64,000 nt of DNA from the IMG/VR virus record IMGVR_UViG_3300030419_007010, positions 97,728 through 161,727 of that record, one strand, 5' to 3'. Made by a program: the position numbers and the translations under genes. Shown piece by piece: positions 38,588-60,158 of this stretch. The notes beneath the pieces were generated by a model. That model did not search any database and was not told the origin of the DNA. It was given only the letters and a program-made list of their open reading frames with translations. This DNA comes from a virus. Numbering within the stretch: the stretch's first letter is position 1; each line of letters begins with the position of its first letter.

Positions 38588-39477
38588 GACATAGGTCGCC
38601 TCATTTGCATGTCTTGCTTTTGAATTTGCAGATATACCTTCTTTCTAAACTTGTTTAATTCTTCTTGATTATTTTTTAGTACGTCTGCATAATCCCTTAC
38701 AACACCTGATATCTCTGGATATCTTTCTAAATCAACAGGATTCATCTTTCTAATCACCTGGAGCGCTTTTCTAGCTGAATACTTATCTAGGAGTTGTTCT
38801 GCTGCTTCGTGGGCATACGCGTCGATTTCTCCGTGTCTGGTAAGATATAGTTCTCTTTCGTCAGGTGTATCTTCTTCTGGAGGGTCTTCTCCACATATTT
38901 CACGATATCTATCAGGATCTCCTGCTGGAACTTGTTTTGTATCACATACCATTTCTCGATATGCTTCATAATCAGAAAGGCCTTTTGAACTCGCTTGTTT
39001 TTTTAATTGATAATAGTGGATTAATTCATGATTTAAAGTTGTGGATATTTCCTTTGATAATTCGCGAGGATTCAAATCATCAAAATTAAAATCTTCAGAA
39101 ATAGAACGCAGTTCCAACCATATAACATGTTGTCCGTCTAATTCTTGATAAGGTCCTCTATATTGTCCTCGTAAAATCCAATTATTTGGATATGAACCAA
39201 ATTCATCCGATGGGCTTAAGGCATATACTTCATCACCAGCAGAAACGTTAAAATATATATTTGATACTTTATTAAGTGAATTTTGAAGTGTTTCAGTGGC
39301 AGGAGTTCCCATCATATTATCTAAACCGTCTTCTTTCAAGTCGATATCTTCGGGATTATTTGATTGAGTCCAAAAAGTAGAATCAACAATTGCTTGAAAA
39401 ATAGCGTCTTTTAATTCTGTTTCTAAAGATGTAACTTCATTTACGTACTTCCGCCAGTTTTCAAGTAGGAGTTTCAT
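38584..39477 (-). CDS. capsid-targeting-like peptide plus HExxH metallopeptidase
   Basis: 297 residues. The first 14 residues, MKLLLENWRKYVNE, are a clear member of the shared N-terminal peptide. The body has STTLNHELIHYYQLKKQAS (HExxH near residue 150) and, about 65 residues later, RHGEIDAYAHEAAEQLL, with an acidic residue suited as third zinc ligand. If the tag works like in T4, this protease is packed into the head and injected. Translationally linked to the next gene by a one-base overlap. Confidence 0.78.
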   Translation of the reverse strand: MKLLLENWRKYVNEVTSLETELKDAIFQAIVDSTFWTQSNNPEDIDLKEDGLDNMMGTPATETLQNSLNKVSNIYFNVSAGDEVYALSPSDEFGSYPNNWILRGQYRGPYQELDGQHVIWLELRSISEDFNFDDLNPRELSKEISTTLNHELIHYYQLKKQASSKGLSDYEAYREMVCDTKQVPAGDPDRYREICGEDPPEEDTPDERELYLTRHGEIDAYAHEAAEQLLDKYSARKALQVIRKMNPVDLERYPEISGVVRDYADVLKNNQEELNKFRKKVYLQIQKQDMQMRRPMS

Positions 39478-39941
39478 TAAAATTGCTTCCCTACTACTAA
39501 ATATTCATCACCCTTAAGAAACGAAGGGTCTATACCGGCATTAGTAAGAACATTAAAAACAAAACTACCACAATTCTCAGATCTTTTTTCAGGATGGTCC
39601 ATTCTACAAATAATTCCATCGGGAACATCAACTGTTTGTGACAATTTCATAGTTTTATAAATACCCATTTTAGCAGCTTCTTCTGGAGAGTTTGGAACTG
39701 ACTTTACATTTTGCCAGAACTTCTCGTCTTTCATAATGTCTTTCCAAGTACTTATAACTGGTTCTACAAGCTCGCCGCGGTGGCCCGACATATCTTTCAT
39801 ACTACCATTTGGTAAAACGAAGCCTACGTGGTCCCATTTATTATTCTTAATACCCCAGGCAGACTTCATAAAAAATAATGTATTAGAAACATCTTTATTT
39901 TCATTTAAATACTTTCGCCAGTTTTCAAATAGTATTTTCAT
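39477..39941 (-). CDS. capsid-targeting-like peptide plus permuted papain-like (LRAT/NlpC) domain
   Basis: 154 residues. N-terminus MKILFENWRKYLNE. The body has NKWDHVGFVLPNGSMKDMSGHRG (His near 38) and, about 85 residues later, RSENCGSFVFNVLTNAG (Cys near 122). A His before an Asn-Cys pair is the order of circularly permuted NlpC/P60 enzymes (LRAT, YiiX, YaeF), which act as acyltransferases, amidases or peptidases. The assignment is by motif order only. A candidate injected hydrolase. Confidence 0.65.
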   Translation of the reverse strand: MKILFENWRKYLNENKDVSNTLFFMKSAWGIKNNKWDHVGFVLPNGSMKDMSGHRGELVEPVISTWKDIMKDEKFWQNVKSVPNSPEEAAKMGIYKTMKLSQTVDVPDGIICRMDHPEKRSENCGSFVFNVLTNAGIDPSFLKGDEYLVVGKQF

Positions 39942-40477
39942 GTTGTGCTTCTGTATACTTGTTTAAAAAGTTGTTGTACAGCAGGGTCACCTTTGTAGTG
40001 TAGATCTAAAGCAACTTTTAGCTGATCCAGATCTTTAAGTTTTTCGTCTCTTGGTAAACTTTCGTAAGGCTTAAACAACGCTGGGTTGTCTTTTTTTTGC
40101 CACGAGTTATGCTTCATCCAAACTTCATGGAATTTAGAAGCTAAACTGTTAATATCTTCAGCTGATTTAATTGGCATGCTCTCAACAACTTTTGCATAAT
40201 CAACAGCAGGGCCGCCATTTAATAATTGATTAAGAGATGGCACAATTTTATCTGCAGTCTGATTAATATTCTGATAGGCAACACCATCCTCTATTTTTAT
40301 TCCCTCATAGCCTTTGAGTTGTTCTGCAGTTGGCTTGCCAGGAATTTGTTTAAATTTAGGATCATTTCCTTTTTTTCTTCTATGGTCTTTCAGCCATTGG
40401 GTATGCATTTTATCTGTCATTTGTTTAGCTAATGACTCATTTAGATATTGGCGCCAATTTTCAAATAAGTTTTTCAT
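39938..40477 (-). CDS. capsid-targeting-like peptide plus RyR-like domain
   Basis: 179 residues. N-terminus MKNLFENWRQYLNE. The region ASKFHEVWMKHNSW, then KKDNPALFKPYESLPRDEKLKDLDQ resembles the RyR repeat found in many phage and bacterial proteins (His-x-x-Trp, then L-x-P-Y-x-x-L-x-x-x-E-K). RyR domains are thought to bind ligands or ADP-ribose-like groups, but this is not settled. The fold assignment is from pattern memory and moderate. Confidence 0.6.
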   Translation of the reverse strand: MKNLFENWRQYLNESLAKQMTDKMHTQWLKDHRRKKGNDPKFKQIPGKPTAEQLKGYEGIKIEDGVAYQNINQTADKIVPSLNQLLNGGPAVDYAKVVESMPIKSAEDINSLASKFHEVWMKHNSWQKKDNPALFKPYESLPRDEKLKDLDQLKVALDLHYKGDPAVQQLFKQVYRSTT

Positions 40478-40481
40478 TTAT

Positions 40482-41279
40482 CTATTTTCCTGTTACAAAA
40501 TAATATCCAGCCGCGGCTAATTTATTTCGGTCTGTGATAGGCTTATTATTTGCATCTGTTAAATCTCCTCCTGGAAATGCTGTAATTGGAGATATTAATA
40601 ATTTTCCATCAGATACTTTTCCTATAATCCCAGCAATAAAACTCATATTTTGAGTATCTTTACCTTCACCAGATGTTATAGCTACCCTCTCAATTTGATA
40701 AGCTTTTGAATTAGATTCTGGAGTCCAAATAGGAATTTTCAACAAGTCTTCTCCTTGTTGAGCCAATTTAGCACCTTCTTCAGTTGTAACAATTGCTCCT
40801 TTTTTTTGTTCTCCGGGGATATATTGTTGATTTCGAAATTCTGTTACAGAAGTGTGTTTTTTCATTTTAGCTACTTCTTCGGGAGAAGCTTTTTTTACAT
40901 TTGCAGTACCAACTGGTATTCCGGCCGGCAAATCTAACCATTTAATTCTTGTAGGGTCACTCGTATCATTAGGATTATTTTTAGATACCAATGATATAAT
41001 CGCCTTTTGAAAATCTACGTTCGGTGAAAATTTGGATCCTGGTTGGGAATTTGGACCCTTAACATGTCTTGATTTAATGTGATCAAAATTATCCCTAGTA
41101 CCGATTATATAATAATTTCCAGCAGGAGATATAGTATTTTTATCTGCTTTGACTTTTCCTCTTATATATTTATTTAATTCATTATCTGGATTATCAATAA
41201 TTTGTTGAATTTCTTCAAAAGGAACTTGTCCAACCTCTTCATTTACATATTGGCGCCAGGATTCAAATAAGTTTTTCAT
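40482..41279 (-). CDS. capsid-targeting-like peptide plus possible HIxxRH toxin-like domain
   Basis: 265 residues. N-terminus MKNLFESWRQYVNE. The body has YYIIGTRDNFDHIKSRHVKGP, where HIxxRH after a hydrophobic strand resembles the catalytic His of colicin-E5/barnase-like RNases in polymorphic toxins and MuF effectors. A second half includes KLLISPITAFPGGDL and ends AAGYYFVTGK. Nuclease activity is speculative. Coupled by ATGA overlap to the membrane protein at 41276. Confidence 0.6.
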   Translation of the reverse strand: MKNLFESWRQYVNEEVGQVPFEEIQQIIDNPDNELNKYIRGKVKADKNTISPAGNYYIIGTRDNFDHIKSRHVKGPNSQPGSKFSPNVDFQKAIISLVSKNNPNDTSDPTRIKWLDLPAGIPVGTANVKKASPEEVAKMKKHTSVTEFRNQQYIPGEQKKGAIVTTEEGAKLAQQGEDLLKIPIWTPESNSKAYQIERVAITSGEGKDTQNMSFIAGIIGKVSDGKLLISPITAFPGGDLTDANNKPITDRNKLAAAGYYFVTGK

Positions 41280-41443
41280 TTCTTGTTTTGCCTCGCTATT
41301 TTTTTAACTTGCTTTTGTAGTTTTGTTACTTCAGTTTCTAGACTATCTAATCTACTTTGTGTTGTATAATAAAATCCACCTAAAGTGGCAGCAATCGTTA
41401 AAAGGGTAATAAGGGTCTTAATATCTATATTTTCTAACTTCAT
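41276..41443 (-). CDS. 55-residue single-span membrane protein with coiled coil
   Basis: ATG at 41443 with SD GAGG, stop overlapping the next start (ATGA). It reads KLENIDIKTLITLLTIAAT into a membrane segment (TLITLLTIAATLGGFYYTT), followed by a basic coiled coil (LDSLETEVTKLQKQVKKIA). The layout is like haemolysin XhlA-type or spanin-like phage proteins, but no family is certain. Confidence 0.6.
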   Translation of the reverse strand: MKLENIDIKTLITLLTIAATLGGFYYTTQSRLDSLETEVTKLQKQVKKIARQNKK

Positions 41444-42205: not shown

Positions 42206-43111
42206 CTATCGGCCAGACTCGGACAGAGCGTCGTTCCAGAGTCGATAATGTGTATCCCAGGTTGATACCACCTCGCCGCGTACATTTTGAATTTCCACAG
42301 GACCATATTGTTGTATATATCCTTGAGCGAGTGCGTGGTCTTTTGCATCATCTATGTTAGCAAATGGTTCAGAGTATAATTTTGTGGCTCTGTATCTTCC
42401 GTCTGGCGGAGCCCACAAAGTAAATTCACCCATCGTTGGTCGCACATGATAATTTGGCATTTCCTTTAGCGTATTTTGCAGTTCTTCTTGAACAATTTGT
42501 TTTAGCTTTGATTCATCCAATGATCGTACCCAATCGAGCCCGCTACCGGGTTTGATGGCGTCTATATCCGAGCGTCTTTTTTGCCAATTATCTATCCTCG
42601 ATTGATCCCAGTTGCGGGGTTCCCAGGCATAACGGAGGCGGTGGGCCCTTGGTGGGTGTTCTGGGTGGGTACGACCTTCAGGATTTTTTTCATCCTTTTT
42701 TGTTCCTACTTGTCTTAAAAACCTCGCAAGATCGGGGTGCTCGCTCCGGACCTTTTTGAGTATTCTTGTCATTTCATCACTTACAGTGTTAAATTTTCTA
42801 GCTGTGGCGCCCAACTTTTCTTTTCCAAAATTTCTTTTATCTGGTCCTTCTGGCATAGCTGCATGTTCTTTTTCCAGTTCTTTTAACTCTAATGAAAGTT
42901 TTTGAAATTCTTTTATTCTTTCTATTAATCCTGGTTCATTTTCCAAAATATTGTTATACCTTTCTAACTCTTGGCTCTGCTTTTTTAACTTTCGGCCCTG
43001 ACGCCATTTATTAAATTTGTTTTTTATAGTTTCTTCTTTTAACACGCTTTGTAGTTCTTCTTCAATAATTTGTTTTAGTTTTGATTGGGTTAGTTTCATG
43101 TTATTCTTCAT
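42206..43111 (-). CDS. protein with two capsid-targeting-like segments
   Basis: 301 residues. The N-terminal MKLTQSKLKQIIEEELQSVL (after a five-residue start; the first ATG has the SD GGAG) and an internal LDESKLKQIVQEELQNTLKE near residues 205-224 are two copies of the same peptide. Between them is a charged, Arg/Pro-rich helical part; after the second copy is a compact 80-residue part (FTLWAPPDGRYRATKLYSEP). It reads like a fusion of two tagged proteins or a precursor cut in the middle. Confidence 0.7.
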   Translation of the reverse strand: MKNNMKLTQSKLKQIIEEELQSVLKEETIKNKFNKWRQGRKLKKQSQELERYNNILENEPGLIERIKEFQKLSLELKELEKEHAAMPEGPDKRNFGKEKLGATARKFNTVSDEMTRILKKVRSEHPDLARFLRQVGTKKDEKNPEGRTHPEHPPRAHRLRYAWEPRNWDQSRIDNWQKRRSDIDAIKPGSGLDWVRSLDESKLKQIVQEELQNTLKEMPNYHVRPTMGEFTLWAPPDGRYRATKLYSEPFANIDDAKDHALAQGYIQQYGPVEIQNVRGEVVSTWDTHYRLWNDALSESGR

Positions 43112-43448
43112 ATTTTACTCCTCCGGGAAGTGTTTTTGGTAGAGGTCGACCTAGAGTAGATAATATTTCATCTGCAGCTTTCTGATCTGCAGCATCCAAA
43201 ATTTCTTTTAACATCCTAACGGCCTCTTCTAGACCATCGTGAAGGATTTGTTCAGCTAGATCTTCTGCGCCTCGTTCGTAATCTGTAAGAGATCTAGATG
43301 TGCCAAGGTTCTGGACACTCATATTAGTACTCTCCAAAACACTTTCTAGAATATCAAATATTTTTTTAAGAGGATCAGAAGACTCATGTTCTAATACACT
43401 CATTTCTTCTTTTATAATCTGCTTTAGTTGTGATTTAGTTAGTTTCAC
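43101..43448 (-). CDS. small capsid-targeting-like protein
   Basis: 115 residues. It starts MKLTKSQLKQIIKEEMSVLE, nearly identical to the start of the 43445 gene. The rest is acidic and helical (LKKIFDILESVLESTNMSV, GAEDLAEQILHDGLEEAVRMLKEIL, DEILSTLGRPLPK) without an enzyme motif. Overlaps the genes on both sides by 4-11 nt. Confidence 0.7.
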   Translation of the reverse strand: MKLTKSQLKQIIKEEMSVLEHESSDPLKKIFDILESVLESTNMSVQNLGTSRSLTDYERGAEDLAEQILHDGLEEAVRMLKEILDAADQKAADEILSTLGRPLPKTLPGGVKYEE

Positions 43449-43804
43449 GTAAATGCTCCTACGTTTTGTGCCTGATAACCTTTCTTCAGCGCCCAGGCCT
43501 CAACGAAATAATGCGCGATGCCGTTGCGGATCATCGCCTTGGCTGCGTCGGCGGCATCTACTGCGCCGGCGTGATCTGAAAAATTAAATTGCTCAACGTC
43601 ACCATCTGCGAACGTAATCGTTTGACCATTCATCTGTTCAAGCATTTCTTCAAATGTGGTTGTTATCCCACCGATTTTTACAAATGGCCCACCATCGTCT
43701 TCATCATCAATAACGTTATATGTAAAGGTGCCGGCCTGCTCATTCAATACTTTCGCGAGTTCTTCTTTTATAATCTGTTTCAGTTGTGATTTGGTTAGTT
43801 TCAT
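43445..43804 (-). CDS. small capsid-targeting-like protein
   Basis: 119 residues. It starts MKLTKSQLKQIIKEELAKVL. The body is mixed alpha/beta (FTYNVIDDEDDGGPFVKIGG, ITFADGDVEQFNFSDHAGAVDAADAAKAMIRNG, HYFVEAWALKKGYQ). Its second half is notably GC-richer than the first. No family recognised. Overlaps both neighbours by 4 nt. Confidence 0.7.
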   Translation of the reverse strand: MKLTKSQLKQIIKEELAKVLNEQAGTFTYNVIDDEDDGGPFVKIGGITTTFEEMLEQMNGQTITFADGDVEQFNFSDHAGAVDAADAAKAMIRNGIAHYFVEAWALKKGYQAQNVGAFT

Positions 43805-44058
43805 AGTTCAACGTCCTCGATGTCTAATTCTCTCATACTAGATAATACTCTTTGTACCACATCAGTAAGTCTTTCATATTTAGGATCAAAAGCATTGTGG
43901 ATAGATTCATGTTCTTCGTCTGTTAAAGCGGTTGGATGCCAATCTCCATTATACCAAATCATGATTTCTGCTTCGGGATCAAGAGTTTGAGCAGATAAAG
44001 CATGCTCATTTAAAAAATATCTTGGGTCAATACGTTTTTTATTTTTTTTTGATATCAT
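43801..44058 (-). CDS. small protein, unknown
   Basis: 85 residues. It starts MISKKNKKRIDPRYFLNEHA and includes IMIWYNGDWHPTALTDEEHESI and a C-terminal acidic helix. The start KKRIDPRYFLNE resembles processed starts of other phage head-associated small proteins. No enzyme motif. Overlaps the large gene at 44055 by 4 nt. Confidence 0.6.
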   Translation of the reverse strand: MISKKNKKRIDPRYFLNEHALSAQTLDPEAEIMIWYNGDWHPTALTDEEHESIHNAFDPKYERLTDVVQRVLSSMRELDIEDVEL

Positions 44059-46487
44059 TTTAAATATTTTCTCCAGGAATCAAATAAAATCTTATCTGTA
44101 ACTAGTTTATTTTGTTGGTTTTCTTCCATAACACTATCTATCACTCCCATTGTTTCTTCGGGAGTTGGCATGCCGGGTCTCCAACCACTAGGATCTTCTT
44201 GAGCGCCAGAAGCCGGCTTAAATAGTTGTGGCTCTTCTTCCATTGCCAGCTTGCCAAATTTTGCTGCAGCGTCTAGAGTTTGGTCTATAAGTATTTTATA
44301 AACTTCGTTTAAATACCTGTCTAAATACTTTGCAAACTGAATTGTGTCTTTAATTTGATCCAAATCGTCTGTCATTTTTATTTTCATATGGATGGTAGCC
44401 TTTAGGGCGGGACTCGGAGACACTTGAATATCAGGAGATAAAATCTCAACCTCAATATTTTTATATGGTATTGTATCCCAAGCTCTATCTTCTAAAAGCT
44501 TCATTTGTCGATCTTTTTGTTGATCTAGTTGTACGAATAGATCAATTGTTTTACGTAGCCAATCTTTTAAGAAGTCTGTATAGGGGCTACGAATATTCTG
44601 TTCAATTCTCTTTGTATATCTGGAGAGAAATGTTTTTTGTACTATTGACACTGCGCCCTGCTCACGTTGGTGTTGCTCACGAGTATCTTCTAACTTATCG
44701 TAATTTAAAGCTTTTAATAAGCCAGTGAGTGGTAAATCAAATTTAGGAGTGAAAAGATGGATGATACCTTTTTCAAATTTTGTATTTAGATTCTTAAATT
44801 GTTCTAGCTCGTCAAACATTTGCTTTCTAGCGTCATATTTTTCAGATTTTATGTAGCCCATATTTCCTAATTCTTCAATTGCTTTTTCTAAAATCTGAGG
44901 ATGTTTTTTATCGTATTCAGCTATTCTATTAAGAAATACTTTAAATTGGGTTACACCTTCGTGCTCATCGTGGTCTGGTTCAAATCTAACTCTAATAGTT
45001 TCTTCATAATCATTAATTTCTACTTCAACTTCATCAGGATATATACCTAGGTCATCCATCGCATCTTTGAATATATCAGTTAGTTGATCTTCATAATCAG
45101 ATGCCATTGGATTTCCATCGCCTGTATCAATCCATGGAAGGTCTTCCGGAAGATCGATTGATGTATAGGCATTCCAAATCCAGCGATGTCCACCCCAATC
45201 CCGAGGATCTTGAACATCTACATCAATATATTCAAAAGAGTGCTCGTGATCTCTTAGCGCAACTTCGAAATCTTCTGAGTCCGGACCGGCTGGATTTTCA
45301 CCTTCGTGCTCGCGAGCTACATACAAACAATCATGGGCGGCGGATTCGAATATTCTCTGTAGTACCTCTAATACTTCTTCAACATCATTAGGATCTTCTA
45401 TAGTTTCGTCATATTCTTCACCAAAATCTCTCACTAGTGTTTTGACAAGAGTCTGAACGTCTTCTGGTACGTCATCGCCCATTTCCAGATCCCTATTGAG
45501 TGTACTAAGTGTTTTTTCTGGGTTAGATACAGCACCTCCTGCTAACACATACTCCATATTTCTATAAAAATCAGAATGGTCAATATCTTTATTGTCTCTA
45601 TTATTAATATTAATAACGTCTTGATCTAAAACTGTTAGCGCTTGTAAGGAAGCATCATCACTCTTAGGTAAAAATTTACTAATAACATAATAAAAGGATT
45701 TACCTTCGTCTGTATATTTTGTATACCATTCTTCATGACCATCATAGCCCTCTACATTACAATTTCCTCTTGCAATACACCAACTTGTGGCTCCTCGTGC
45801 TCCACCTAGATGGGCTGCAGCCTCAACAGAATATGGACGAGCTAATACAAAATAATCATTTTCAATAAGAACTTCAACATCTTCAAGAGCTTTCATTTTT
45901 TCGCCTCTCTTCTTTTGGCGCTTTGAAAACCCTAGTTCTTTAGTTACAGATATAAGATCATCTAAACTTTTGTAGGAATTGATGTCTTTGTTTTTAATTC
46001 TTTGAATGTTTTTGTGGAACTCTGCAATTTCATCGCCAATTTTTATAGCGTGATTAAAAAGCTCAACAAAGAATTCATCTTGGGGATTAGGCTCGTCTTT
46101 GGCCGGCCACGCGATGTTGACGCCTAGTGGCCCCTTTAACTGCTTATCTAGTTCTGCAGCTAGCTGTTTAGTCATCCACATAAGATACTTATTGTTTTTA
46201 GAGGGATCTAAATTAGCTAGACGGTCTACAAATCGATTAACTTGAGGATATTTTTTCTCTGCGTCCTCTTTACGACCTTCCGCAATAAGGGCTATTTCTT
46301 CTTCAGTTAAAGTATCTTCTTCAGCTAAGAATCCGCCTCGTCGACCAGTTGCTGAATCTGTAGAACTAGCATAACCATCAAATCCAATAGTTTCTCTTTT
46401 GGATTCATATCTAGAACTTTGATGACCAGGGCCCGGGCGTTGATTCTCAGTAAGAAAACTTCTCCATTTATTAACAAAGTCACTCAT
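44055..46487 (-). CDS. large tagged protein with TSWC motif, unknown
   Basis: 810 residues, the longest gene in the window. It begins MSDFVNKWRSFLTENQRPG, the shared peptide, and ends DSWRKYLK, almost the same motif at the C-terminus. The stretch AAHLGGARGATSWCIARGN followed by WYTKYTDEGKSFYYVIS resembles a (S/K)WC(I/T) motif found in phage and bacterial proteins of unknown function. The middle is acidic with a strand-rich DYEETIRVRFEPDHDEHEG region. Probably a packaged internal protein. Confidence 0.65.
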   Translation of the reverse strand: MSDFVNKWRSFLTENQRPGPGHQSSRYESKRETIGFDGYASSTDSATGRRGGFLAEEDTLTEEEIALIAEGRKEDAEKKYPQVNRFVDRLANLDPSKNNKYLMWMTKQLAAELDKQLKGPLGVNIAWPAKDEPNPQDEFFVELFNHAIKIGDEIAEFHKNIQRIKNKDINSYKSLDDLISVTKELGFSKRQKKRGEKMKALEDVEVLIENDYFVLARPYSVEAAAHLGGARGATSWCIARGNCNVEGYDGHEEWYTKYTDEGKSFYYVISKFLPKSDDASLQALTVLDQDVININNRDNKDIDHSDFYRNMEYVLAGGAVSNPEKTLSTLNRDLEMGDDVPEDVQTLVKTLVRDFGEEYDETIEDPNDVEEVLEVLQRIFESAAHDCLYVAREHEGENPAGPDSEDFEVALRDHEHSFEYIDVDVQDPRDWGGHRWIWNAYTSIDLPEDLPWIDTGDGNPMASDYEDQLTDIFKDAMDDLGIYPDEVEVEINDYEETIRVRFEPDHDEHEGVTQFKVFLNRIAEYDKKHPQILEKAIEELGNMGYIKSEKYDARKQMFDELEQFKNLNTKFEKGIIHLFTPKFDLPLTGLLKALNYDKLEDTREQHQREQGAVSIVQKTFLSRYTKRIEQNIRSPYTDFLKDWLRKTIDLFVQLDQQKDRQMKLLEDRAWDTIPYKNIEVEILSPDIQVSPSPALKATIHMKIKMTDDLDQIKDTIQFAKYLDRYLNEVYKILIDQTLDAAAKFGKLAMEEEPQLFKPASGAQEDPSGWRPGMPTPEETMGVIDSVMEENQQNKLVTDKILFDSWRKYLK

Positions 46488-46937: not shown

Positions 46938-47289
46938 TGGTGGAGGTGCCGGGAGTCGAACCCGGGTCCAGAATACATCAAATAGTTTGTCATTCACAAG
47001 GTTAGTTCATTTTATATTTTTTTTAAAGGTCTTCTTCAAAAACAAACAAAATAATTTGACCAATGAAGTATACCGCTAAGTATACAATGCTAAAAATATT
47101 TAAAGAGGCGCTAGCAATCCTCTGTCGCTACTTTGGTTAAGAAGGTAGTTAGCGAACCCCCTTATGCTGCGAGAGCATAATTTGCAACATTATCGTTGGC
47201 AATTATAGTTTCAGCGTTTTAACAGAGCCACGCTGCCCTCTGCCTTGCACAAAATATTATACTTACCCTGTCGATACCAGTTCACCCCC
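46938..47289 (-). ncRNA. ssrA: tmRNA (ssrA)
   Basis: On the minus strand the 5' end GGGGGTGAACTGGTATCGAC pairs with the 3' end CACCTCC-A-CCA to form a 7-bp acceptor stem (one G-U), and the T-arm CCGGGTTCGACTCCCGG precedes it; CCA is encoded. The resume region (47200-47162) codes for ANDNVANYALAA followed by TAA, a normal proteolysis tag ending ALAA; with the tRNA-borne Ala it is AANDNVANYALAA. Length is 352 nt, in the usual range. tmRNA rescues stalled ribosomes and tags the products for ClpXP. Confidence 0.95.
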
Positions 47290-48034: not shown

Positions 48035-48820
48035 TTAAACAACACCTTCTAACTCTTCAGGAGCCGGCTGGTCTACAGGCTCCTCGGTACCGACACCCTG
48101 CTCGTATTCTGGTGTCGTAGGTTCTTCAACTTCTGGTGACAAGTCAGTTTCAAATTTATCAAAGTATAATTTTAAGTTAGTAATTAAGTAATCATAAAAT
48201 AATTCTTTATCTTCAGTAGATCCCAGCACGTCATATGAATCAACTATATTACTACTAATTTTCTTAAATGAAGTAAAGGCCATATTTCTACCTGTTTCTT
48301 CCTGACCAGGGATCCCAAACTCTTCCCTTTCATCAGGTGGCTCTTCTACAGCAGCTTTGTCATCGATATCGATAAAAGCATCATCAGGAGGACTAGCTCC
48401 CTCTCCTCCAATATCAACTTCTACTTCTTTTACTGATACTAGCTTACTTTCTTCTCCAGCTTTTGATGTGACTCTTGGTGGAGCTAGCGTATCTTCTACC
48501 GCCTTAATAACATGAGACCTAAAAGATTGGCGCTGCTCAACACTTGAAGTAAGTTTCTTAAAATCGTCTTCTAGAACTGGGATGATTTTCTTAAGTAAGT
48601 CTTCTAATACATTAATACCAGTAGATCTATGAGGGGCGGGATCATTATCATCTACACTAGTTTCTTTTAGAAGATCTTTAATAATACTACGAAGTTTTTG
48701 TTCTTCAAGTAAAGCCTGTTGCTTTTCTGTTTCTTTCTTTTCTAAAACTATAGAAATACCTTTTCGTATTATCTTGCGAAGTTTTAGTTCTTGTAAAAAT
48801 TGTTCTCTATTTGTTTGCAT
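48035..48820 (-). CDS. capsid-targeting-like acidic protein, scaffold-like
   Basis: 261 residues from the ATG at 48820 (SD GGAG, 8 nt). The start QTNREQFLQELKLRKIIRKG and a second EEQKLRSIIKDLLKETS 30 residues later resemble the KLKQII-type peptide. The rest is acidic and low in aromatic residues, with Pro/Glu-rich linkers (VEEPTTPEYEQGVGTEEPV) like phage scaffold or internal proteins. Overlaps the ligase-like gene by 14 nt. Confidence 0.6.
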   Translation of the reverse strand: MQTNREQFLQELKLRKIIRKGISIVLEKKETEKQQALLEEQKLRSIIKDLLKETSVDDNDPAPHRSTGINVLEDLLKKIIPVLEDDFKKLTSSVEQRQSFRSHVIKAVEDTLAPPRVTSKAGEESKLVSVKEVEVDIGGEGASPPDDAFIDIDDKAAVEEPPDEREEFGIPGQEETGRNMAFTSFKKISSNIVDSYDVLGSTEDKELFYDYLITNLKLYFDKFETDLSPEVEEPTTPEYEQGVGTEEPVDQPAPEELEGVV

Positions 48821-50777
48821 GGTTCCCGCTCCCAATATCCATTATAACATTAATTATTTGTTCAATTAAGTCATCTTCTTCTCTAATTAGTGTTTCTTCA
48901 TCTCTTTTACCAGGATGGCCCATATGTCCAGCAACAGATCCGCCGGCACATGATGAAACTTCTTCGAGTTCCTCTTCTTCCTCTTCTTTTTTAGTTTTTG
49001 GTTTTTTACGCTCTTTTTTTTCTGTTATAACTTCCTCAACCAAAGAAAATAGGGACTCCATGGTCAGTGTTTTTTTTTCTATTTTTTGACCAATAACCGC
49101 CAATATTTCATCTGCTGAATTAATTGACTCTTCCGGGAGCCATGGGAGAATATCTTCATTTGTAGCAATTGCATTTCTAAAATCAGTTGCATTCAACTCG
49201 GGAGGATTGGGTTCAAAAGCGAATCTTGCTGGATCTAATACTTCTACACCCTCGGATGCATATTGTTGAACATCGCCAGCAAAACGTGACTGATCACCTC
49301 CTTTAGTGCTCGAACCCAATATAATTTTATCTCCAGGTTGTGCGTAATCTTCTTTGTTATGTTCATTTGCAACAAAATCAAAGGTCGCTCCAACAGGAGA
49401 ATTCTTCGGAGATCTTAAAACTTCTACATTACTAAGACCAGCATTTCTTAAATATATATTCCAGATATCAATAGCATCTTCAGCAGTAATTTCAAGACCA
49501 CCCGGTAGATTTTTAGATATTGGTGAAACTAAAACAACTACTTTACCATTGTTTCCAACAACACTAGAATAATGTTTTACCATATCTAAATGCCCGCGAT
49601 GGGGAGGTTTAAATTTTCCAGGAATTAACGCAACAGCATTTGCATTTGTAATATCATCTTCTTTCGCGCTAACTGCAGCTTTTGGATCTTCCTTTTGTCT
49701 AAATGAAGAGTCCATCCCAGATAAAATAAATTTACCTGTAATTTTAACAGGTTTGGGGCCAAATTGGTCATCTCGCAAAACCACCCCTTCATGATTCATT
49801 AAACTTCCCATATCACTGGTTAAAGTTTTTAAGATATCATCTCCTAAAATTAGTGTAGCATGATAAAAAACAGCACCGTATATTGCAGGCTTTACATCGC
49901 TAGAATCTGCGATAAAAGAAGTAATTGGTGTGCCGTTTAATATTTCTGTATATACTAATTTACTTAAAGCTTTAATTTTTTTACCATTTGTAAGTTTAAC
50001 AAAATGATATCGAGGATTGTCAGCTTCCGCTAGCCATTCTTCCATAGATTTAGTAACGACTTCATCTTCAGGAGAAAAGTTTACTCGGAATTGCTGTGCT
50101 AAACTACTTGAAAAATCTATTTTTTCGCCAGGATTTGTTCTTGTTGGTATTGAACCATATACTTTAAAATTGTATTCTTTGGCGAAAGGAGAAACTTTTT
50201 TAATTAGTCTTTTTAAAACAGAAGGATTATATTCTAGTTCTGTGCTTGGTGCTTCCTCATCTTCAGGACGTGGCGCACCCGGGCGTGTAACACCGGTTCT
50301 AAAGTGTGTTTTTTCATAAAACTGATTTACACCATGAATAGCAAGAAAGTTATGATCATATTCAGTAACGTTAGTTTTTCTTAAAACATACTCTGTATTT
50401 AAAAAGACCGTAGGATTATCCCACATATCTAACTCTTCTAATTCCTCTTGAATACTTGGAAGAGCTTCATTAAAAATACCAAGTAATACACTGATGGCTT
50501 CCCGCATGCCATGGCCTTCGGGAAATCTTTCACCAATACGATTAAAAGTAATACCTTCAATATCAATTGGTTTTAGACTTCCACGATCAACCGCAAACTC
50601 TTTGCCATTGCGACCTTCGACTAGCTTAAAACTTACATTAACACCATCAATTTTTACAGCACCAGAATTATTAGCTAAATATTCTGCTGCATTTTCAAAA
50701 AATTCAAAAAGATCGGCCCCGTTTTTTACACGAGGTAAATCAAATGGATGCGCCATATGTCCTGCTGCACCGCCCAT
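48807..50777 (-). CDS. fused RNA-ligase-like / nucleotidylyltransferase protein with GHMxHP ends
   Basis: 656 residues. It starts MGGAAGHMAHPFD. Residues 35-360 look like a covalent nucleotidyltransferase: VKIDGVNVSFKLV (K42, KxDG motif I), HEGVVLRDD (motif IV) and VKITGKF (motif V). Residues 385-560 are a cytidylyltransferase-like domain: VALIPGKFKPPHRGHLDMVK with HxGH, ILGSSTKGGDQSRFAG. The end has SSCAGGSVAGHMGHPGK, a near copy of the N-terminus, and acidic helices. Possibly repairs or modifies RNA or NAD; the activity is inferred from motifs. Confidence 0.72.
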   Translation of the reverse strand: MGGAAGHMAHPFDLPRVKNGADLFEFFENAAEYLANNSGAVKIDGVNVSFKLVEGRNGKEFAVDRGSLKPIDIEGITFNRIGERFPEGHGMREAISVLLGIFNEALPSIQEELEELDMWDNPTVFLNTEYVLRKTNVTEYDHNFLAIHGVNQFYEKTHFRTGVTRPGAPRPEDEEAPSTELEYNPSVLKRLIKKVSPFAKEYNFKVYGSIPTRTNPGEKIDFSSSLAQQFRVNFSPEDEVVTKSMEEWLAEADNPRYHFVKLTNGKKIKALSKLVYTEILNGTPITSFIADSSDVKPAIYGAVFYHATLILGDDILKTLTSDMGSLMNHEGVVLRDDQFGPKPVKITGKFILSGMDSSFRQKEDPKAAVSAKEDDITNANAVALIPGKFKPPHRGHLDMVKHYSSVVGNNGKVVVLVSPISKNLPGGLEITAEDAIDIWNIYLRNAGLSNVEVLRSPKNSPVGATFDFVANEHNKEDYAQPGDKIILGSSTKGGDQSRFAGDVQQYASEGVEVLDPARFAFEPNPPELNATDFRNAIATNEDILPWLPEESINSADEILAVIGQKIEKKTLTMESLFSLVEEVITEKKERKKPKTKKEEEEEELEEVSSCAGGSVAGHMGHPGKRDEETLIREEDDLIEQIINVIMDIGSGNHANK

Positions 50778-51244: not shown

Positions 51245-52357
51245 TTACTTAATCCACTTTTTCATAAGAGCATCATAAAGTCGCTCTTCTTTAAGTTGTT
51301 CGAAGGTTTTTTTCTCGCCTCTCGCATGCCCGGATCCAGGATATGTCTCTCCGGGAAATTTCCCGCCGACGTCACGTACCGGCGCGGGTTCCTTTCTCCG
51401 CCCACCATGTTTCCTCATGCAGTCTTCGTGCGCTCCGAGCAACATGCCGGTGCTTATTTGCTCATGATTCGGGTCGTCTTTAACGGCCTGCTGCAGCTGG
51501 TTCCATGTGTCCGCACATGGATCCGAATCTTCTTCCAATTCTTCGGCCTCTTCCAAGGGCTTTTGACGATCGGCCGGCTTATCCTTGCCTCTACGATCCT
51601 CTGAATTGCCTCTACGGCGCTCCTCAAGGCTTTCCTCTTCCTCGACGACCTCTTCCCCTTCGGAGACGTCTTCCTCTTCTTCTAGCGGCTGTACACGGTC
51701 TGGCTCTTTCTCCTCCGCGCGCCGGCCGGGTCGCCTACGTCGTTCTTCAAGCTCTTCGCTTTCAGCTAGCCGTGTTTCTTGAGCCCATTCTTCGTGTGAT
51801 TGTCCGGAATGGACTTCATCACATTGTGTTGGCTCGTGTGTATGCACGGTTAAACCAGAAGCAGAGCCTTCCATTAATTTTGCTTTCAAAGCTTCTCTGA
51901 TTGCTTTTCTTAATGTTTGTTCATTCATTGTTTTTTTCCTTGATTTGGATTTGATTCCATCTTCCCAATCTCTTATAAGTAGATTTCCTTCTAAATAAGC
52001 TTCTTTCTCCATCATTCTTAAATGTTCGTCTTTTTGTGCGTAACCTTCTTCTGTTACATGATCTCCTTCAAATTCACCTCTACAATTCTGATTATGATGA
52101 ACTAATTCGTGAGAAAAAGATCTTAATATGTCCTTTGGATGTCTCTTATCAATATAAATAGATATCTCATTTGCATTTGGATCATAATAAGCTGTTTTTC
52201 CTAAAGGATTCGAAGCATTATGAGGATCTGAAACAAAAGAAAGCGCCACTGGCCTGTTAAAACCAAGGCGCTTTTGTGCATAGGGAAAAAATTTATTTAC
52301 TAACTCATGTACTTCTTGCAAACTCTCATTTGTCTTATTTGTTATTTTTAAGCTCAT
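51245..52357 (-). CDS. HExxH metallopeptidase fused to charged, tag-like C-terminal part
   Basis: 370 residues. Residues 1-142 are a zincin: ILRSFSHELVHHNQNCRGEF (near residue 85) and HLRMMEKEAYLEGNLLI as likely third-ligand helix. At residue 144 a second Met opens MNEQTLRKAIREALKAKLME, like the shared KLKQII peptide, with its own SD (AAGGA at 8 nt; ATG at 51928), so a second product of 226 residues may be made. The rest is extremely charged (Glu/Arg repeats) and encoded by GC-rich sequence, ending YDALMKKWIK. Confidence 0.72.
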   Translation of the reverse strand: MSLKITNKTNESLQEVHELVNKFFPYAQKRLGFNRPVALSFVSDPHNASNPLGKTAYYDPNANEISIYIDKRHPKDILRSFSHELVHHNQNCRGEFEGDHVTEEGYAQKDEHLRMMEKEAYLEGNLLIRDWEDGIKSKSRKKTMNEQTLRKAIREALKAKLMEGSASGLTVHTHEPTQCDEVHSGQSHEEWAQETRLAESEELEERRRRPGRRAEEKEPDRVQPLEEEEDVSEGEEVVEEEESLEERRRGNSEDRRGKDKPADRQKPLEEAEELEEDSDPCADTWNQLQQAVKDDPNHEQISTGMLLGAHEDCMRKHGGRRKEPAPVRDVGGKFPGETYPGSGHARGEKKTFEQLKEERLYDALMKKWIK

Positions 52358-53300
52358 TTTTAATAAGTCTTTTTAACTTTTCCTCTGATAGAGTAATTGT
52401 TTCTTCTAGTTGGCCGGCCACCGTGGACTTTGTACCAATAGTTCCCTTTTTATATCCCCCTAAACCACCGGTCGGGGCTTTTGTAGCACGAGCTTTCTCA
52501 ACACCGCCTCTAGGTTTACGATCTTTAGCTAAACCAACAGGTGTTTCTGGATCGGTTGCTGACATTGCAACATCACCGATTTCACCAGCTTCTGGAGCAG
52601 CAGAAGGATCAATTGCTACAGACAACTCCTTTAGTTTGCCTCCAGTGCCACCAACACCAGCTAATTCGGATAATTTATCCATATAACCGTTATGTATACT
52701 AATCCAATTAACTAATTCTGCAGCTGCTCTATACACAGCATCTGCCGTTTCACCTGTAGCTACAGCTTCTGTTACGGGTTTTCCTTCTGCGTCTTCCATA
52801 CCTTCAGGAGGCCCGGTGACGACATCATCTTCGTTATCAGGTTGTAGGCCCTGGGCTCTTAATTCGGGCTCATCTTCTACAGATAACATATCTGCCAAAC
52901 GATTAAGAGAAGTGGGATCAATAGCTACCGCTTTAAGCTTAGTTTGTAATTTATCATTTGCCTGTCTAACTTTAATTTCATATTCAGCAAAAACATCTGC
53001 TAACTGAGCCATGGTAGGGGCAACCCTTTTTAAAGCTTTTTGTCCCGCAACTTCTTTTTGTTCCGGCGATGCTTCTTCTGCAGTATCAAGCGCGGCATCA
53101 AGCATTCGATTAGCCTTCGAAGCTTTTGCGAGAGTGATCCATTTTCTTAGTCCTGTTTTTGCACCAAGCTTAATTGATTGGAACACATCAGCAATATCTT
53201 CTTCAAGCATTCTTATGTGTTCTTCAGAGAGAACTTCTTTGCTTTCTTCTAATATAACTTCTTCTACAAGCTTTTTTAGCTGCGCTTTAGTTAGTTTCAT
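52335..53300 (-). CDS. capsid-targeting-like protein, scaffold-like, tag at both ends
   Basis: 321 residues. It begins MKLTKAQLKKLVEEVILEES and ends ITLSEEKLKRLIKNELKNNK, two versions of the shared peptide. The interior is helical and Ala-rich (ASKANRMLDAALDTAEEASP, VRQANDKLQTKLKAVA), with a Gly/Thr-rich linker near the end. This layout fits an internal core or scaffold protein. Overlaps the metallopeptidase gene by 23 nt. Confidence 0.65.
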   Translation of the reverse strand: MKLTKAQLKKLVEEVILEESKEVLSEEHIRMLEEDIADVFQSIKLGAKTGLRKWITLAKASKANRMLDAALDTAEEASPEQKEVAGQKALKRVAPTMAQLADVFAEYEIKVRQANDKLQTKLKAVAIDPTSLNRLADMLSVEDEPELRAQGLQPDNEDDVVTGPPEGMEDAEGKPVTEAVATGETADAVYRAAAELVNWISIHNGYMDKLSELAGVGGTGGKLKELSVAIDPSAAPEAGEIGDVAMSATDPETPVGLAKDRKPRGGVEKARATKAPTGGLGGYKKGTIGTKSTVAGQLEETITLSEEKLKRLIKNELKNNK

Positions 53301-53494: not shown

Positions 53495-54484
53495 TTATTC
53501 GGCTGGTGGAGCCGATTTTGAACGCTTAAAAGGCGGTTTTTTGCTAAAAGGTGCCTTATTTCCTTGCTTTCCGAGTGAAATTGTCTGTTTTTTAGCTTCT
53601 TCGTGGTCTTTTTTGACCAATTCTTGGTATTTTCCCGCTTCTTCAAGCGAAAAATCGGCTTTTTCTTGCGTTTTTTTGTTATTTTCAACGAATTTACGCC
53701 AATTTTTGCTAAATTCTTCCTTTAAAGACATCATTGCGTCATAAGAATCGGTAAAAAGGTCAGATAATCGCTGCAAATAGCCATTTCGACGCAAAACTTT
53801 GAATGCTAGGTTCTCTTCAGAGAAGATTCCACCCTTTTGAAGCCCACATCTTCTGAATTTTCTTATCTTTTCCTTGATTTTCTTCGAGAAATCATGAGAA
53901 TCATCGTATTTTTGGTGATTAAACAGCTTTTCGACCCCATCAATGAGGCTCATGAGCTTCGAAGCCTTCTTTTTAACGTCCATATAGTTAATTTCAGGCT
54001 CATTGTGAAGCGGTTCTGCTACCCATTGGTTATTTAACACCGAATAAACACCCATAGATATATGAGGTTCTTTAGAATCCTGTATATATATCTCCACTTC
54101 ATACCCGTGAATTAGGATATTGTGTTTCTTATTCCAATTTATAATCTTTTCTTTGAATAAATCTTGCAATAATTCGGTATTTTCATGAATTTTTTCGAAA
54201 TCAAGCAAGATATGAAGGTCAACATCCGAAAAACTAGACCAATTATAGCTTGCAAGCGAACCAGTAAGCAAAATATCGTCCAAAATTACTTCTTTATTGA
54301 ATAAATCAGATAAACCTAGGTCATCAAAGAACTTATTTGATATTTCTAACAGCTTTTCGCGGACTTCAGGGTCCATTAACTTGTTTTGCCATATTTCAGG
54401 CGCTAGATCATCCTGCATTTCGAGATTTGTTACGTCAATCTCTCTATGATCATCTAAAAATTCTTGCCAAAGTTGCAAATTCAT
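53495..54484 (-). CDS. Pol-beta-like nucleotidyltransferase with tag-like segments
   Basis: 329 residues. The Pol-beta-superfamily site is DDILLTGSLASYNWSSFSDVDLHILL (GS...SDxD) near residues 66-91. Such minimal nucleotidyltransferases add NMPs to proteins, nucleic acids or small molecules. The N-terminus MNLQLWQEFLDDHRE resembles the shared peptide, and an internal EEFSKNWRKFVENNKK near residue 260 is a close copy of the W-R type, followed by a basic Lys/Ser-rich tail. Target unknown. Confidence 0.75.
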   Translation of the reverse strand: MNLQLWQEFLDDHREIDVTNLEMQDDLAPEIWQNKLMDPEVREKLLEISNKFFDDLGLSDLFNKEVILDDILLTGSLASYNWSSFSDVDLHILLDFEKIHENTELLQDLFKEKIINWNKKHNILIHGYEVEIYIQDSKEPHISMGVYSVLNNQWVAEPLHNEPEINYMDVKKKASKLMSLIDGVEKLFNHQKYDDSHDFSKKIKEKIRKFRRCGLQKGGIFSEENLAFKVLRRNGYLQRLSDLFTDSYDAMMSLKEEFSKNWRKFVENNKKTQEKADFSLEEAGKYQELVKKDHEEAKKQTISLGKQGNKAPFSKKPPFKRSKSAPPAE

Positions 54485-54495
54485 ACAATAATTAC

Positions 54496-56421
54496 TTACT
54501 TACAAGCGTTTTCGTCAATAATTTCCATTAAACTATTATAAACAGTTAACATATCGTCTGTTAATTCATACCACTTGCCTGAAGAAGCGGTACATAGAGG
54601 TTCCCATCCTGAATGATAGTTACCATTTTCCTTATGCCAATCTTTTGAGAACACATATATCTTTGTATTAACAGTGTTTGATATCAATTGTAACAAATGA
54701 TCTTGTTCAATTTTAGGATCTAGGTAAGATTGAGGGACTTCATCTGAAAATAATATAATAACTCTCTCTACACTTGAGTCAGTACGCCAATTAACTTTGA
54801 AATTTAATAATTCTGGGTTAGATTGACCAACGCCTTTCATTGTATTCCAAGCTAAGTCCGCTAATTTGATTGGTAAGACAGCAGAGGAGACCAAATTATG
54901 CATCGCGAGATATAACGCATCATGAAGCATCTCCCGCGCGCCTGACATAGAGTATGAGTTGATGTTTAATTGAGCCATACCGGCCAAGAAATCGGTGAAT
55001 CCTGACAAGTTATGATGCAATTTAAGGTATTCTGCGTATGGACCACTAAAACCCTCTAGAGGGCCCAAAATAATGCCCCATTGAAGTACTTCTTCATCAC
55101 TATACTGGCCGGCAAATTTGTTGAGAGCAGTCATAACAGCAATAATCTCTGTATCCATAGAACCAGACCAGTCAACAATGAATAGAATATCAACTGGTTG
55201 CATTTCTTCACCAGAATCAGTTATACCATCACAATCATCATCAACGCCATTGCAGACTTCTTCTTGAGGGGTTATCTCATCTTTACAGAACCCTGGAGTG
55301 AAATACTGCGGTTCTTCTGGCATATCAACCCAATAGTTCCCCCAAACACCTTCTAAACAAGTTAACATGCCCGGTTCGCATATACCTACATATAAAGTGG
55401 CCGGATCTGCGGAATAACATTGCGCATATAGGTCTTCATCGATCAATTGATTGCAATTATCATCGAAATTGTTGCATTCTTCCGCTTCCAAAGGCATGCC
55501 CACCGTCGGATCGCATATTTCGTCTGGATCTGGGAAATAAACGCACGGTGCAACACAATCTGTCGTATAAATCTCCGTACAATTAGGATCTGCGCACTCA
55601 CACGTCTTATATCCTTGGCCACAAAGCAATGGCGACTCATTACACGGGAATAATGCCCCAACGTGGTCTATAGTACACTCACATTTAAGCTCTTCGTCGA
55701 TTTGACCGTCACAATCGTTATCAAAACCATCACAGATTTCAATTTGGACCGGAGGAGCGTTACAAGAGACCCAATTACCTGCAATACAGTATTCTATACC
55801 GACTCCGCATGCTGTTGAACACTCTTGAATGAGATCTTCATCAATATCACCGTCACAATCATTGTCAAAGCCATCGCAGACGTCTTCTGGTACAAAACCA
55901 CACTCCCCACATGCGTTTAATTGGCCTTCGTCGATAAATCCATCACAATCATTGTCCTCATAGTCGCATATTTCTTCGGAACAGATCGTTTCACAGTCTG
56001 TAAACTTAATTTTGCCTTTATCGCATACTTGGTCTTGCGTTCCTGGAAATCCATCGATTGTTATGCACTCAATTGTTCCCATATTATAGTTTGTTGGATC
56101 ACATTCCAAAAATTCTTCACATTCTCCGACTTCCAAAACCTTCGGAGGGTCAAGACATATATCTTTTACAATCTTCATACGCCAATTGGCATTTAGATCA
56201 CAAAAATACCACTCTTCACGAATACATTTCTTCCGATACTCTTCAGGAGTCATCAACTCCATAATAAGAGGGTTTGGAATTGATATCGGATATAAACTTA
56301 TAGGAGGGGCTTCATCTGGAGTATCATTACAAGAAACTACTGTCGAGAGCACCAATAATAAAACGGCGCCGTATACCAACGACATTTTTAAAATATTATA
56401 TAATTTCTTGAGTATTTTCAT
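54496..56421 (-). CDS. MopE-repeat and VWA-domain lipoprotein
   Basis: 641 residues from the ATG at 56421, one base after the upstream stop. Lipoprotein signal VLLLVLSTVVSCNDTPDEAP. Five MopE-type metal-binding repeats follow (CDYEDNDCDGFIDEG, CDGFDNDCDGDIDED, CDGFDNDCDGQIDEE, CNNFDDNCNQLIDED, CNGVDDDCDGITDSG), then a VWA domain with the MIDAS motif VDILFIVDWSGSMDTE near residue 412. Such proteins are common on the surface of myxobacteria and relatives, not in phages. Probably exported to the outer membrane, calcium-dependent adhesion. Possible host-derived gene. Confidence 0.88.
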   Translation of the reverse strand: MKILKKLYNILKMSLVYGAVLLLVLSTVVSCNDTPDEAPPISLYPISIPNPLIMELMTPEEYRKKCIREEWYFCDLNANWRMKIVKDICLDPPKVLEVGECEEFLECDPTNYNMGTIECITIDGFPGTQDQVCDKGKIKFTDCETICSEEICDYEDNDCDGFIDEGQLNACGECGFVPEDVCDGFDNDCDGDIDEDLIQECSTACGVGIEYCIAGNWVSCNAPPVQIEICDGFDNDCDGQIDEELKCECTIDHVGALFPCNESPLLCGQGYKTCECADPNCTEIYTTDCVAPCVYFPDPDEICDPTVGMPLEAEECNNFDDNCNQLIDEDLYAQCYSADPATLYVGICEPGMLTCLEGVWGNYWVDMPEEPQYFTPGFCKDEITPQEEVCNGVDDDCDGITDSGEEMQPVDILFIVDWSGSMDTEIIAVMTALNKFAGQYSDEEVLQWGIILGPLEGFSGPYAEYLKLHHNLSGFTDFLAGMAQLNINSYSMSGAREMLHDALYLAMHNLVSSAVLPIKLADLAWNTMKGVGQSNPELLNFKVNWRTDSSVERVIILFSDEVPQSYLDPKIEQDHLLQLISNTVNTKIYVFSKDWHKENGNYHSGWEPLCTASSGKWYELTDDMLTVYNSLMEIIDENACK

Positions 56422-56422
56422 A

Positions 56423-56716
56423 TTAATCGATTGGACCAAAAAGATCATCGAAGTTAAAGAAAAATTTATCAGTATCTCTTATATTAACTTCTTCCATTGT
56501 ATTCCAAAGTTTAGCCAACGTCCTTCCAGCTTCTATATCTGTATCAAAGTGTTTTTTTAAAAAATGTTTATCTTCTACCAAAACTGCAAAATATGCACGA
56601 ATCTTCCATTTGAATTTATTTGTTAATTCAACACATCCAACTGGATCATCATTATTCTTTCCAACAATCCGAACTTCCGTGGTTGTATGAGAAAGCTTCT
56701 TCCAACTTATTTTCAT
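56423..56716 (-). CDS. small protein, unknown
   Basis: 97 residues: KISWKKLSHTTTEVRIVGKN, VGCVELTNKFKWKIRAYFAVLV, then FDTDIEAGRTLAKLWNTMEEV. A strand-rich first half and helical second half. No family known. Similar short proteins occur in marine phage genomes as I recall them. Confidence 0.6.
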   Translation of the reverse strand: MKISWKKLSHTTTEVRIVGKNNDDPVGCVELTNKFKWKIRAYFAVLVEDKHFLKKHFDTDIEAGRTLAKLWNTMEEVNIRDTDKFFFNFDDLFGPID

Positions 56717-56998: not shown

Positions 56999-57460
56999 TC
57001 AGAACCACACGACAGTTTTGAATTGAATTAACTTTCCGAAAAAATTTTCTATTATTTTTTTATCATTTTCTTTGCAAACACCGTCAGCGCCGAGGATAAT
57101 TTTTGTATTTTGGCCAATATTCTTCGGTTTGGCCTTACCGACGTTTTCCCATGTCTCGTCATCGTCTTTATACTTAATATAACCAACCGGCAGCAAATTT
57201 TTCTGTTTTCCGGACGATGAAGGCACGATAATCAGGTCCCAGCCCATGTCATCAGCAGGATTAATGAGTTTTGGCCACTCTCCATAATCAAACTCAAGTT
57301 TGACCTTTTTCAAACCGCCGAATTTTTTCGTTTTTCCTTTTGGAGTGTCGATATTGATTTCTTGATTCGGATTTGCGCGAATAATATCAATTAGTTCTTT
57401 TTGTGTTGGAATTACCTGTTCGATCAAAAATTTTTCCCAACTTTCCAATATTTTTTTCAT
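56999..57460 (-). CDS. capsid-targeting-like protein, unknown body
   Basis: 153 residues. It starts MKKILESWEKFLIEQ, the shared peptide. The body is alpha/beta with GYIKYKDDDETWENVGKAK and KIILGADGVCKENDKKIIENFFG; no catalytic motif is certain. It overlaps the membrane protein at 57457 by 4 nt. It is the last tagged gene on this side. Confidence 0.6.
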   Translation of the reverse strand: MKKILESWEKFLIEQVIPTQKELIDIIRANPNQEINIDTPKGKTKKFGGLKKVKLEFDYGEWPKLINPADDMGWDLIIVPSSSGKQKNLLPVGYIKYKDDDETWENVGKAKPKNIGQNTKIILGADGVCKENDKKIIENFFGKLIQFKTVVWF

Positions 57461-59224: not shown

Positions 59225-59518
59225 CTAATTTTTATATTTTTTGGCTCGATTAATCGGCTCTCCTTCCACTATCCAATGGAAATGACCGAACGGTTCTTGC
59301 TGGTGTCTCTCAACTTTCGCATTTTTTGGGAAAATTTTTTTTACGGCATGTTTTATACACTTAATTTCGCCTTTTAGTGGCAATGAAGTGTGCCTTCGAA
59401 GCGCTACTATCCAATGATCTTCCTTTGGTAGCTTAATTACTCTCACTACTGGTGTCTCATATATGCATAATACCTTTCTTGTCTCGCATATTGTACACTT
59501 TTTCTCCTCATACTTCAT
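59225..59518 (-). CDS. HIT-like or zinc-ribbon small protein
   Basis: 97 residues. KKCTICETRKVLCIYETPVVRVIKLPKEDHWIVALRRHTS and RHQQEPFGHFHWIVEGEP. The C-x2-C near the N-terminus and the C-terminal G-H-F-H-W-I-V resemble the layout of HIT-superfamily proteins (N-terminal zinc site, HxHxH-like end), but the third His is replaced, so hydrolase activity is doubtful. Confidence 0.55.
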   Translation of the reverse strand: MKYEEKKCTICETRKVLCIYETPVVRVIKLPKEDHWIVALRRHTSLPLKGEIKCIKHAVKKIFPKNAKVERHQQEPFGHFHWIVEGEPINRAKKYKN

Positions 59519-59888: not shown

Positions 59889-59892
59889 TTAA

Positions 59893-60150: not shown

Positions 60151-60158
60151 ATTGGTAA

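Follow-up and report, generated by a model that had tools for sequence, protein, structure and literature searches.

What is the function of a phage protein that joins an RNA ligase-like domain to a nucleotide adenylyltransferase-like domain? We addressed this question for an open reading frame (ORF) on the minus strand of a 64,000-nucleotide stretch, here called the window, which spans positions 97,728 to 161,727 of the 161,727-base phage record IMGVR_UViG_3300030419_007010 in IMG/VR. The ATG of this ORF is directly preceded by a ribosome-binding site (AAGGAG) and an in-frame TAA, making its start at M-G-G-A-A-G-H-M firm. On balance, we favor the reading that its product, the window protein, is a head-packaged, ejected bifunctional nucleotidyl-transfer enzyme of a T4-type phage, which probably acts on RNA ends or nicotinamide adenine dinucleotide (NAD) early in infection. 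The whole ORF and the features of its N-terminal half are as follows, in window coordinates.

48807..50777, minus strand: whole ORF, 656 amino acids, stop codon included; ligase-like domain, adenylyltransferase domain and C-terminal tail
49704..50777, minus strand: residues 1-358, predicted covalent-nucleotidyltransferase (RNA/DNA ligase superfamily) domain, from AlphaFold2 and VIA-align
50739..50774, minus strand: residues 2-13, family signature GGxxGHMxHPFD, which follows the initiator Met here and [LIVMF]xE in most relatives
50643..50654, minus strand: motif I, K42-I-D-G45, with the predicted nucleotidyl-lysine (92/92)
50391..50399, minus strand: motif III, N127-T-E129 (92/92)
50334..50360, minus strand: motif IIIa region, Y140-D ... 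I-H148 (Y140 92/92, H148 91/92)
49779..49790, minus strand: motif IV, E330-G-V-V333, within E330-G-V-V-L-R335 (91/92)
49734..49745, minus strand: motif V, K345-I-T-G348, within K345-I-T-G-K-F350 (91/92)

Modeling lends good support to the assignment of residues 1-358 to the covalent-nucleotidyltransferase (polynucleotide ligase and capping enzyme) superfamily. An AlphaFold2 model of the domain, computed with 91 sequences, has a predicted local distance difference test (pLDDT) score of 93.6 and a predicted template modeling (pTM) score of 0.89, and all 50 entries listed by VIA-align for it are polynucleotide (RNA or DNA) ligases. The top match is T4 Rnl1 (2c5u; Z 8.5, root-mean-square deviation 4.0 over 176 residues), followed by a Naegleria RNA ligase, archaeal RNA ligases, Rnl2, a fungal tRNA ligase and DNA ligases; beyond the best match, Z lies at 5.5-7.4 and is thus moderate. 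Because RNA ligases lead this list, adenylylation or sealing of RNA ends is our leading idea for what the protein does. The window family shares with T4 Rnl1 and the RNA ligase superfamily the nucleotidyltransferase fold and motifs I (KxDG), III, IIIa, IV (EGxV) and V, but differs from T4 Rnl1 in sequence (15% identity), in the single Lys of motif V, in the fused adenylyltransferase and in its capsid-processing sites. That T4 Rnl1 scores best also speaks for virion-delivered repair of RNA or tRNA against host anticodon nucleases or RNases, in the manner of T4 Pnkp and Rnl1. We consider this unlikely: repair leaves the adenylyltransferase half unexplained, and no end-healing kinase or phosphatase domain was identified in the window protein.

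Conservation was assessed on homologues drawn from IMG/VR, where two alignment-based scans returned at least 458 and at least 510 confirmed stretches; the working set holds 92 sequences from fetched loci, nonredundant at 90%. K42, D44, G45, N127, E129, N136 and Y140 are kept in all 92, and E330, G331, V333, K345, T347, G348 and H148 in 91. GHxxH was part of the scan pattern, and EGxV and KxTG of the extraction expression, which means that these positions were partly selected; K42, D44, G45, N127, E129 and Y140 lie outside both and were not selected for.

The second half begins after a short linker.

49644..49703, minus strand: residues 359-378, linker between the domains, of low pLDDT (361-374 in the full-length model)
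49077..49643, minus strand: residues 379-567, predicted HxGH adenylyltransferase domain of the phosphopantetheine adenylyltransferase/nicotinamide mononucleotide adenylyltransferase (PPAT/NMNAT) superfamily, from Foldseek, VIA-align and profiles
49590..49601, minus strand: H393-R-G-H396 in GKFKPPHRGH, invariant in 19/19 relatives
49176..49190, minus strand: A530-T-D-F-R534, at the position of the superfamily's ISxTxIR motif, A and R invariant

Residues 379-567 are confidently predicted to adopt the Rossmann-like fold of the PPAT/NMNAT superfamily. The full-length model has an overall pLDDT of 86.3; Foldseek places the domain in this superfamily at E 7.5e-6, and VIA-align superposes the whole domain on PPAT (Z 15.6) and NadM (Z 14.6). 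A profile search of the Protein Data Bank (PDB) with this domain returned archaeal MJ0541 first (E 9e-6), and the match to TIGR00125 (E 5e-6) falls just under its cut-off. Both HxGH histidines and the A and R of ATDFR are invariant in the 19 relatives. The domain thus resembles PPAT (CoaD) and NMNAT (NadM, NadR) in fold and in the HxGH site, but it is fused to a ligase-like domain and reaches no substrate-specific family cut-off; every NCBIfam NMNAT and PPAT model stays below its own. The structural comparison ends in a tie between PPAT and NMNAT and so does not identify the second substrate.

This tie bears on the most credible alternative, a NAD-recycling pair, which we nevertheless regard as doubtful. 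Here a NAD-dependent ligase half would release nicotinamide mononucleotide (NMN) and the NMNAT half would restore NAD with ATP, or a packaged NMNAT would raise host NAD early. Among solved structures, NMNATs count with the domain's closest relatives, release of NMN is known for NAD-dependent ligases (PMC8131947), and an action on host NAD has been proposed for the NMNAT-like proteins of cyanophage virions (PMC9602691, PMC10665884). However, PPATs score as high as NMNATs, so that NMN is only a candidate substrate; ATP-dependent RNA ligases rank first in the fold search of the other half, and we identified no NMN-binding domain (Ia) in the window protein.

A preliminary description of this ORF, made from its letters alone, had proposed a bifunctional enzyme, and our results agree: both folds are predicted and the catalytic residues are invariant across the aligned relatives. 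The KxDG (K42), EGVVxR and KxxGKF-type motifs and the HxGH at H393-R-G-H396 are present as described there, the N-terminal half models as a ligase fold, the second half superposes on the PPAT/NMNAT fold, NadM included, and neither K42 nor the His pair varies among the sequences compared.

The pairing of the two domains is, by sequence, a recurrent feature of dozens of other large phages. A nucleotidylyltransferase (NT) partner is fused to the ligase-like domain or lies within 4 kb of it in 76 of the 92 nonredundant loci: 24 fusions with the ligase first, 29 with the NT domain first, and 23 loci in which a downstream gene no more than 4 kb away encodes the NT domain. Of the 16 loci lacking a partner, at least nine are cut by a contig end, and no NT motif was found beyond 4 kb in 251 kb of flanking DNA. 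A scan with the ligase domain as sole query gave a partner in 27 of 30 untruncated loci (nonredundant at 80%). A tree of 67 sequences requires 12 or more changes of architecture; the coupling therefore outlasts rearrangement.

Coupling of these two enzyme classes also speaks for RNA capping or decapping, which we hold to be improbable. In this case, a virion-delivered modifier of RNA 5′ ends would use the ligase-like and NMNAT-like domains in series to add or remove NAD or a related nucleotide post-transcriptionally at the start of infection; the NT half would join NMN or another nucleotide to 5′-triphosphate or adenylylated RNA, giving NAD-RNA or A-pp-RNA, or catalyze the reverse. NMNATs and RNA ligases have both been proposed as candidate noncanonical capping enzymes, and a 2021 review knew of no post-transcriptional NAD-capping enzyme; Escherichia coli NadD and NadR, however, did not cap RNA in vitro (PMC8131947). 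Because the NMNAT-like and RNA ligase-like classes are joined in one polypeptide, the window protein is a natural candidate for a capping assay, and a candidate for the long-sought post-transcriptional NAD-capping activity.

Existing models and databases cover this family poorly. Scans of the window protein with Pfam, PHROG and NCBIfam gave sub-threshold cytidylyltransferase matches only, and a PADLOC scan gave none; the ligase-like family has no significant match to Pfam or PHROG models. The RNA ligase profile PF09414 does not match the window protein and reaches one of 93 members at a weak E of 0.0044. Neither the window protein nor the ligase profile found a match among PDB sequences. A tblastn search of phage records with the window protein found nothing at E<=1e-5 and, at E<=10, a weak trail to Microcystis phage Mel-JY01. 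A bacterial source of the family was rejected: 84,980 genomes gave four matches, three of them short or weak. We found no paper in the literature on an RNA ligase-cytidylyltransferase fusion in phages.

The closest parallel is DUF6267, for which we likewise found no paper. This family, present in 471 phage records by tblastn and at L187 986-2761, shares with the window family the motif order HLEHxED, KxDG, QGD, H, EGxV, KxV and the coupling to an NT domain by fusion or adjacency: cyanophage S-PM2d138 encodes DUF6267 (PF19782, E 1.6e-111) fused to a CTP_transf_like domain, and in P-HM1 and S-H9-1 a DUF6267 gene precedes a cytidyltransferase gene. One member (Melnitz-1) has a capsid-targeting-like leader, and the S-PM2 protein A0A0M6VVW4 is a weak structural match (BFVD, E 1e-3). 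Unlike the window family, DUF6267 has no GGxxGHMxHP. Its profile does not match the window protein at E<=1, and hhalign of the two families gives a nonsignificant probability of 1.5-2.8%, although the H-x-x-H and KxDG registers coincide. From these motifs, DUF6267 is probably ligase-like too, and a common origin of the two families is likely.

Several lines of evidence suggest that the protein travels in the phage head. The genome codes for a prohead protease (Peptidase_S77, E 9e-33) and for a major capsid protein of the T4 Gp23 type (E 1e-60), so the head is of the T4 type. In T4, the prohead protease cleaves after L/I-x-E, the first ten residues of IPIII are enough for capsid targeting, and Alt is a head-packaged, host-modifying enzyme that is processed at both ends (PMC9026906). 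The GG signature is immediately preceded by [LIVMF]xE in 77 of the 92 homologues, by the initiator Met in 14 and by another sequence in one; [LIVMF]xE thus occurs in 77 of the 78 members without an M-GG start, against a background of 2.1% in the same proteins. The leaders so delimited, such as MITFKQFLLE/GG, MKTFKQYYNTILNE/GG and MKSFKQFIINE/GG (the slash marks the predicted cut), resemble capsid-targeting sequences (CTSs). Similar leaders occur on the separate NT genes of split phages (MITFKKFFLKE/N, MKTFKQFFLGE/Q, MTFKRFLAE/Q) and also on unrelated neighbor genes.

In members that start at M-GG, the site appears to have moved to the other end. A C-terminal [LIVM]xE/x(S/T)S-x-AGG site is found in 12 of 14 M-GG members and in the window protein, compared with 3 of the 78 others (Fisher p 2e-11, the window protein counted). 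The same motif stands where the propeptide junction is expected in this phage's major capsid protein (LLKE/ASTMAGGDVEGF, with E at residue 59) and in that of a relative (LLRE/NSTMSGGDVEGF). Such N- to C-terminal relocation of a protease site could be used to recognize other head-packaged cargo in metagenomic phages. The corresponding features of the window protein are as follows.

49008..49061, minus strand: residues 573-590, helix MESLFSLVEEVITEKK, resembling the KLTKxQLKxIIKEE tags of this genome
48939..48968, minus strand: residues 604-613, predicted prohead-protease site LEE606/VSSCAGG, like LLKE/ASTMAGG of the phage's major capsid protein
48810..48959, minus strand: residues 607-656, C-terminal tail, whose removal within the head is predicted by the precedent of T4 Alt

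By analogy with Alt, residues 607-656 are a possible C-terminal capsid-targeting tail. The preliminary description had seen nearly the same motif at both ends of the protein, and GGAAGHMAHP (2-11) and GGSVAGHMGHP (near 613-622) are indeed there; a true duplication was rejected. The first marks the conserved beginning of the ligase domain and the second is a Gly-rich stretch after the probable cleavage site, aligning in relatives with SSMAGGSVAGYSLPL or SSMGGGAVQGA, with GHM in this phage only. Some relatives (L003, L001) have a second site-like motif in their last 120 residues, LQE/ISTSSGG or IEE/ISTMSG.

Published proteomics points the same way. NMNAT-like proteins of cyanophages S-SCSM1 (QFG06348.1) and S-CREM2 (gp154) were detected in virions by mass spectrometry, with carry-over in the virion preparation possible according to the source papers (PMC9602691, PMC10665884). 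Both are NMNAT/cytidylyltransferases with an HxGH-type NT domain and a CTS-like leader (MKSFLQFLKE/A and MKNFSSFLTE/A, respectively), but no ligase-like domain was seen in the same polypeptide. Packaging, which had been proposed from gene position, thereby gains independent support from the prohead-protease sites, the capsid-targeting-like leaders and the virion proteomics of related NT proteins. The window protein shares with T4 Alt and IPI-IPIII the predicted L/I-x-E sites, with its relatives' leaders resembling CTSs, and with Alt the C-terminal processing, predicted here (PMC9026906); it differs in being another enzyme and in retaining only the C-terminal site. The precedent of Alt, a packaged host modifier processed at two ends (PMC9026906), is also what favors nucleotidylylation of host proteins after ejection, analogous to ADP-ribosylation by Alt. 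We rate this the least probable alternative, as nothing in the fold indicates a protein substrate.

Some observations weigh against our favored reading of a packaged bifunctional enzyme. Plain Foldseek of the ligase-like domain against the PDB gave no match below E 1e-3 (best E 0.018), scores too weak to tie the domain to a single ligase family. Motif V of ligases is usually KxK; here K345 is present and the usual second Lys is replaced by the invariant Thr347. With its firm start directly after a stop codon, the window protein cannot carry an N-terminal capsid-targeting leader, and we do not class it as a CTS protein. L/I-x-E is weak by itself, with 12 such sites in the window protein, and the packaging case from this motif is one of conserved place. 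The sequence statistics ignore phylogeny and are uncorrected for relatedness. Finally, many fusions with the NT domain first have GxHH in place of HxGH, and their NT half may have lost or changed its activity; the PGRFQPFGKHH-type motif occurs at loci L030, L043, L063, L067, L069, L084 and L122. This degenerate motif in one subgroup, together with the packaged-protein signature, would suit a noncatalytic structural protein of the head, built from two re-used enzyme folds. We judge that very unlikely, because the ligase half keeps its active-site residues invariant even across rows diverged to about 20% identity and HxGH is invariant in the window protein's own group.

From the two computed folds, the invariant catalytic residues, the domain coupling, the prohead-protease-type sites and the genes for the protease and Gp23, we infer the following course for a packaged bifunctional enzyme. 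The window protein would be packed into the prohead as an internal head protein, trimmed by the S77 prohead protease of the phage and ejected with the DNA. Like RNA ligases, its N-terminal half would pass through a Lys42-AMP intermediate, and it would adenylylate or seal a 5′-phosphate end, most likely of RNA. The HxGH half would make or break a pyrophosphate-linked adenylate, NAD-like or dephospho-CoA-like, which may feed or finish the reaction of the ligase half. Both activities would act early, before phage gene expression. These findings define a large ligase-like protein family of phages that the Pfam and PHROG models used here do not cover, tied to an NT partner and apparently carried in the head. 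They offer a candidate packaged RNA-end or NAD enzyme and a candidate explanation for the NMNAT-like proteins in cyanophage virions.

The surrounding gene block contains at least 12 genes with leaders of the type MKxLFENWRxYLNE or MKLTKSQLKQIIKEEL, among them those at window positions 38584-41303, 42209-43807, 44055-46487, 52335-53300 and 56999-57460 (and G000 54026-55409). From these leaders, they look like further head-packaged cargo; ten proteins of the block had no match in Pfam. Tag-like stretches lie at both ends of the 810-residue protein at 44055-46487, and the protein at 51245-52357 has a HELVHH zinc-protease-like motif followed, mid-protein, by a helical tag and KLME/GSASG. Beside the tagged block, the protein at 53495-54484 strongly matches phrog_36119 (E 5.5e-43) and has weak matches to Pol-beta nucleotidyltransferases. 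The 650-residue protein at 54496-56448 has five MopE-type metal-binding repeats (Pfam PF11617, E 4e-15). Across window positions 59500-64000, the genes cease to follow a phage-like pattern and G+C climbs from about 0.35 to about 0.50; this part is possibly a chimeric or host-derived contig end. The window also encodes a tRNA-Thr at 35670-35742 and a transfer-messenger RNA (tag ANDNVANYALAA) at 46938-47289.

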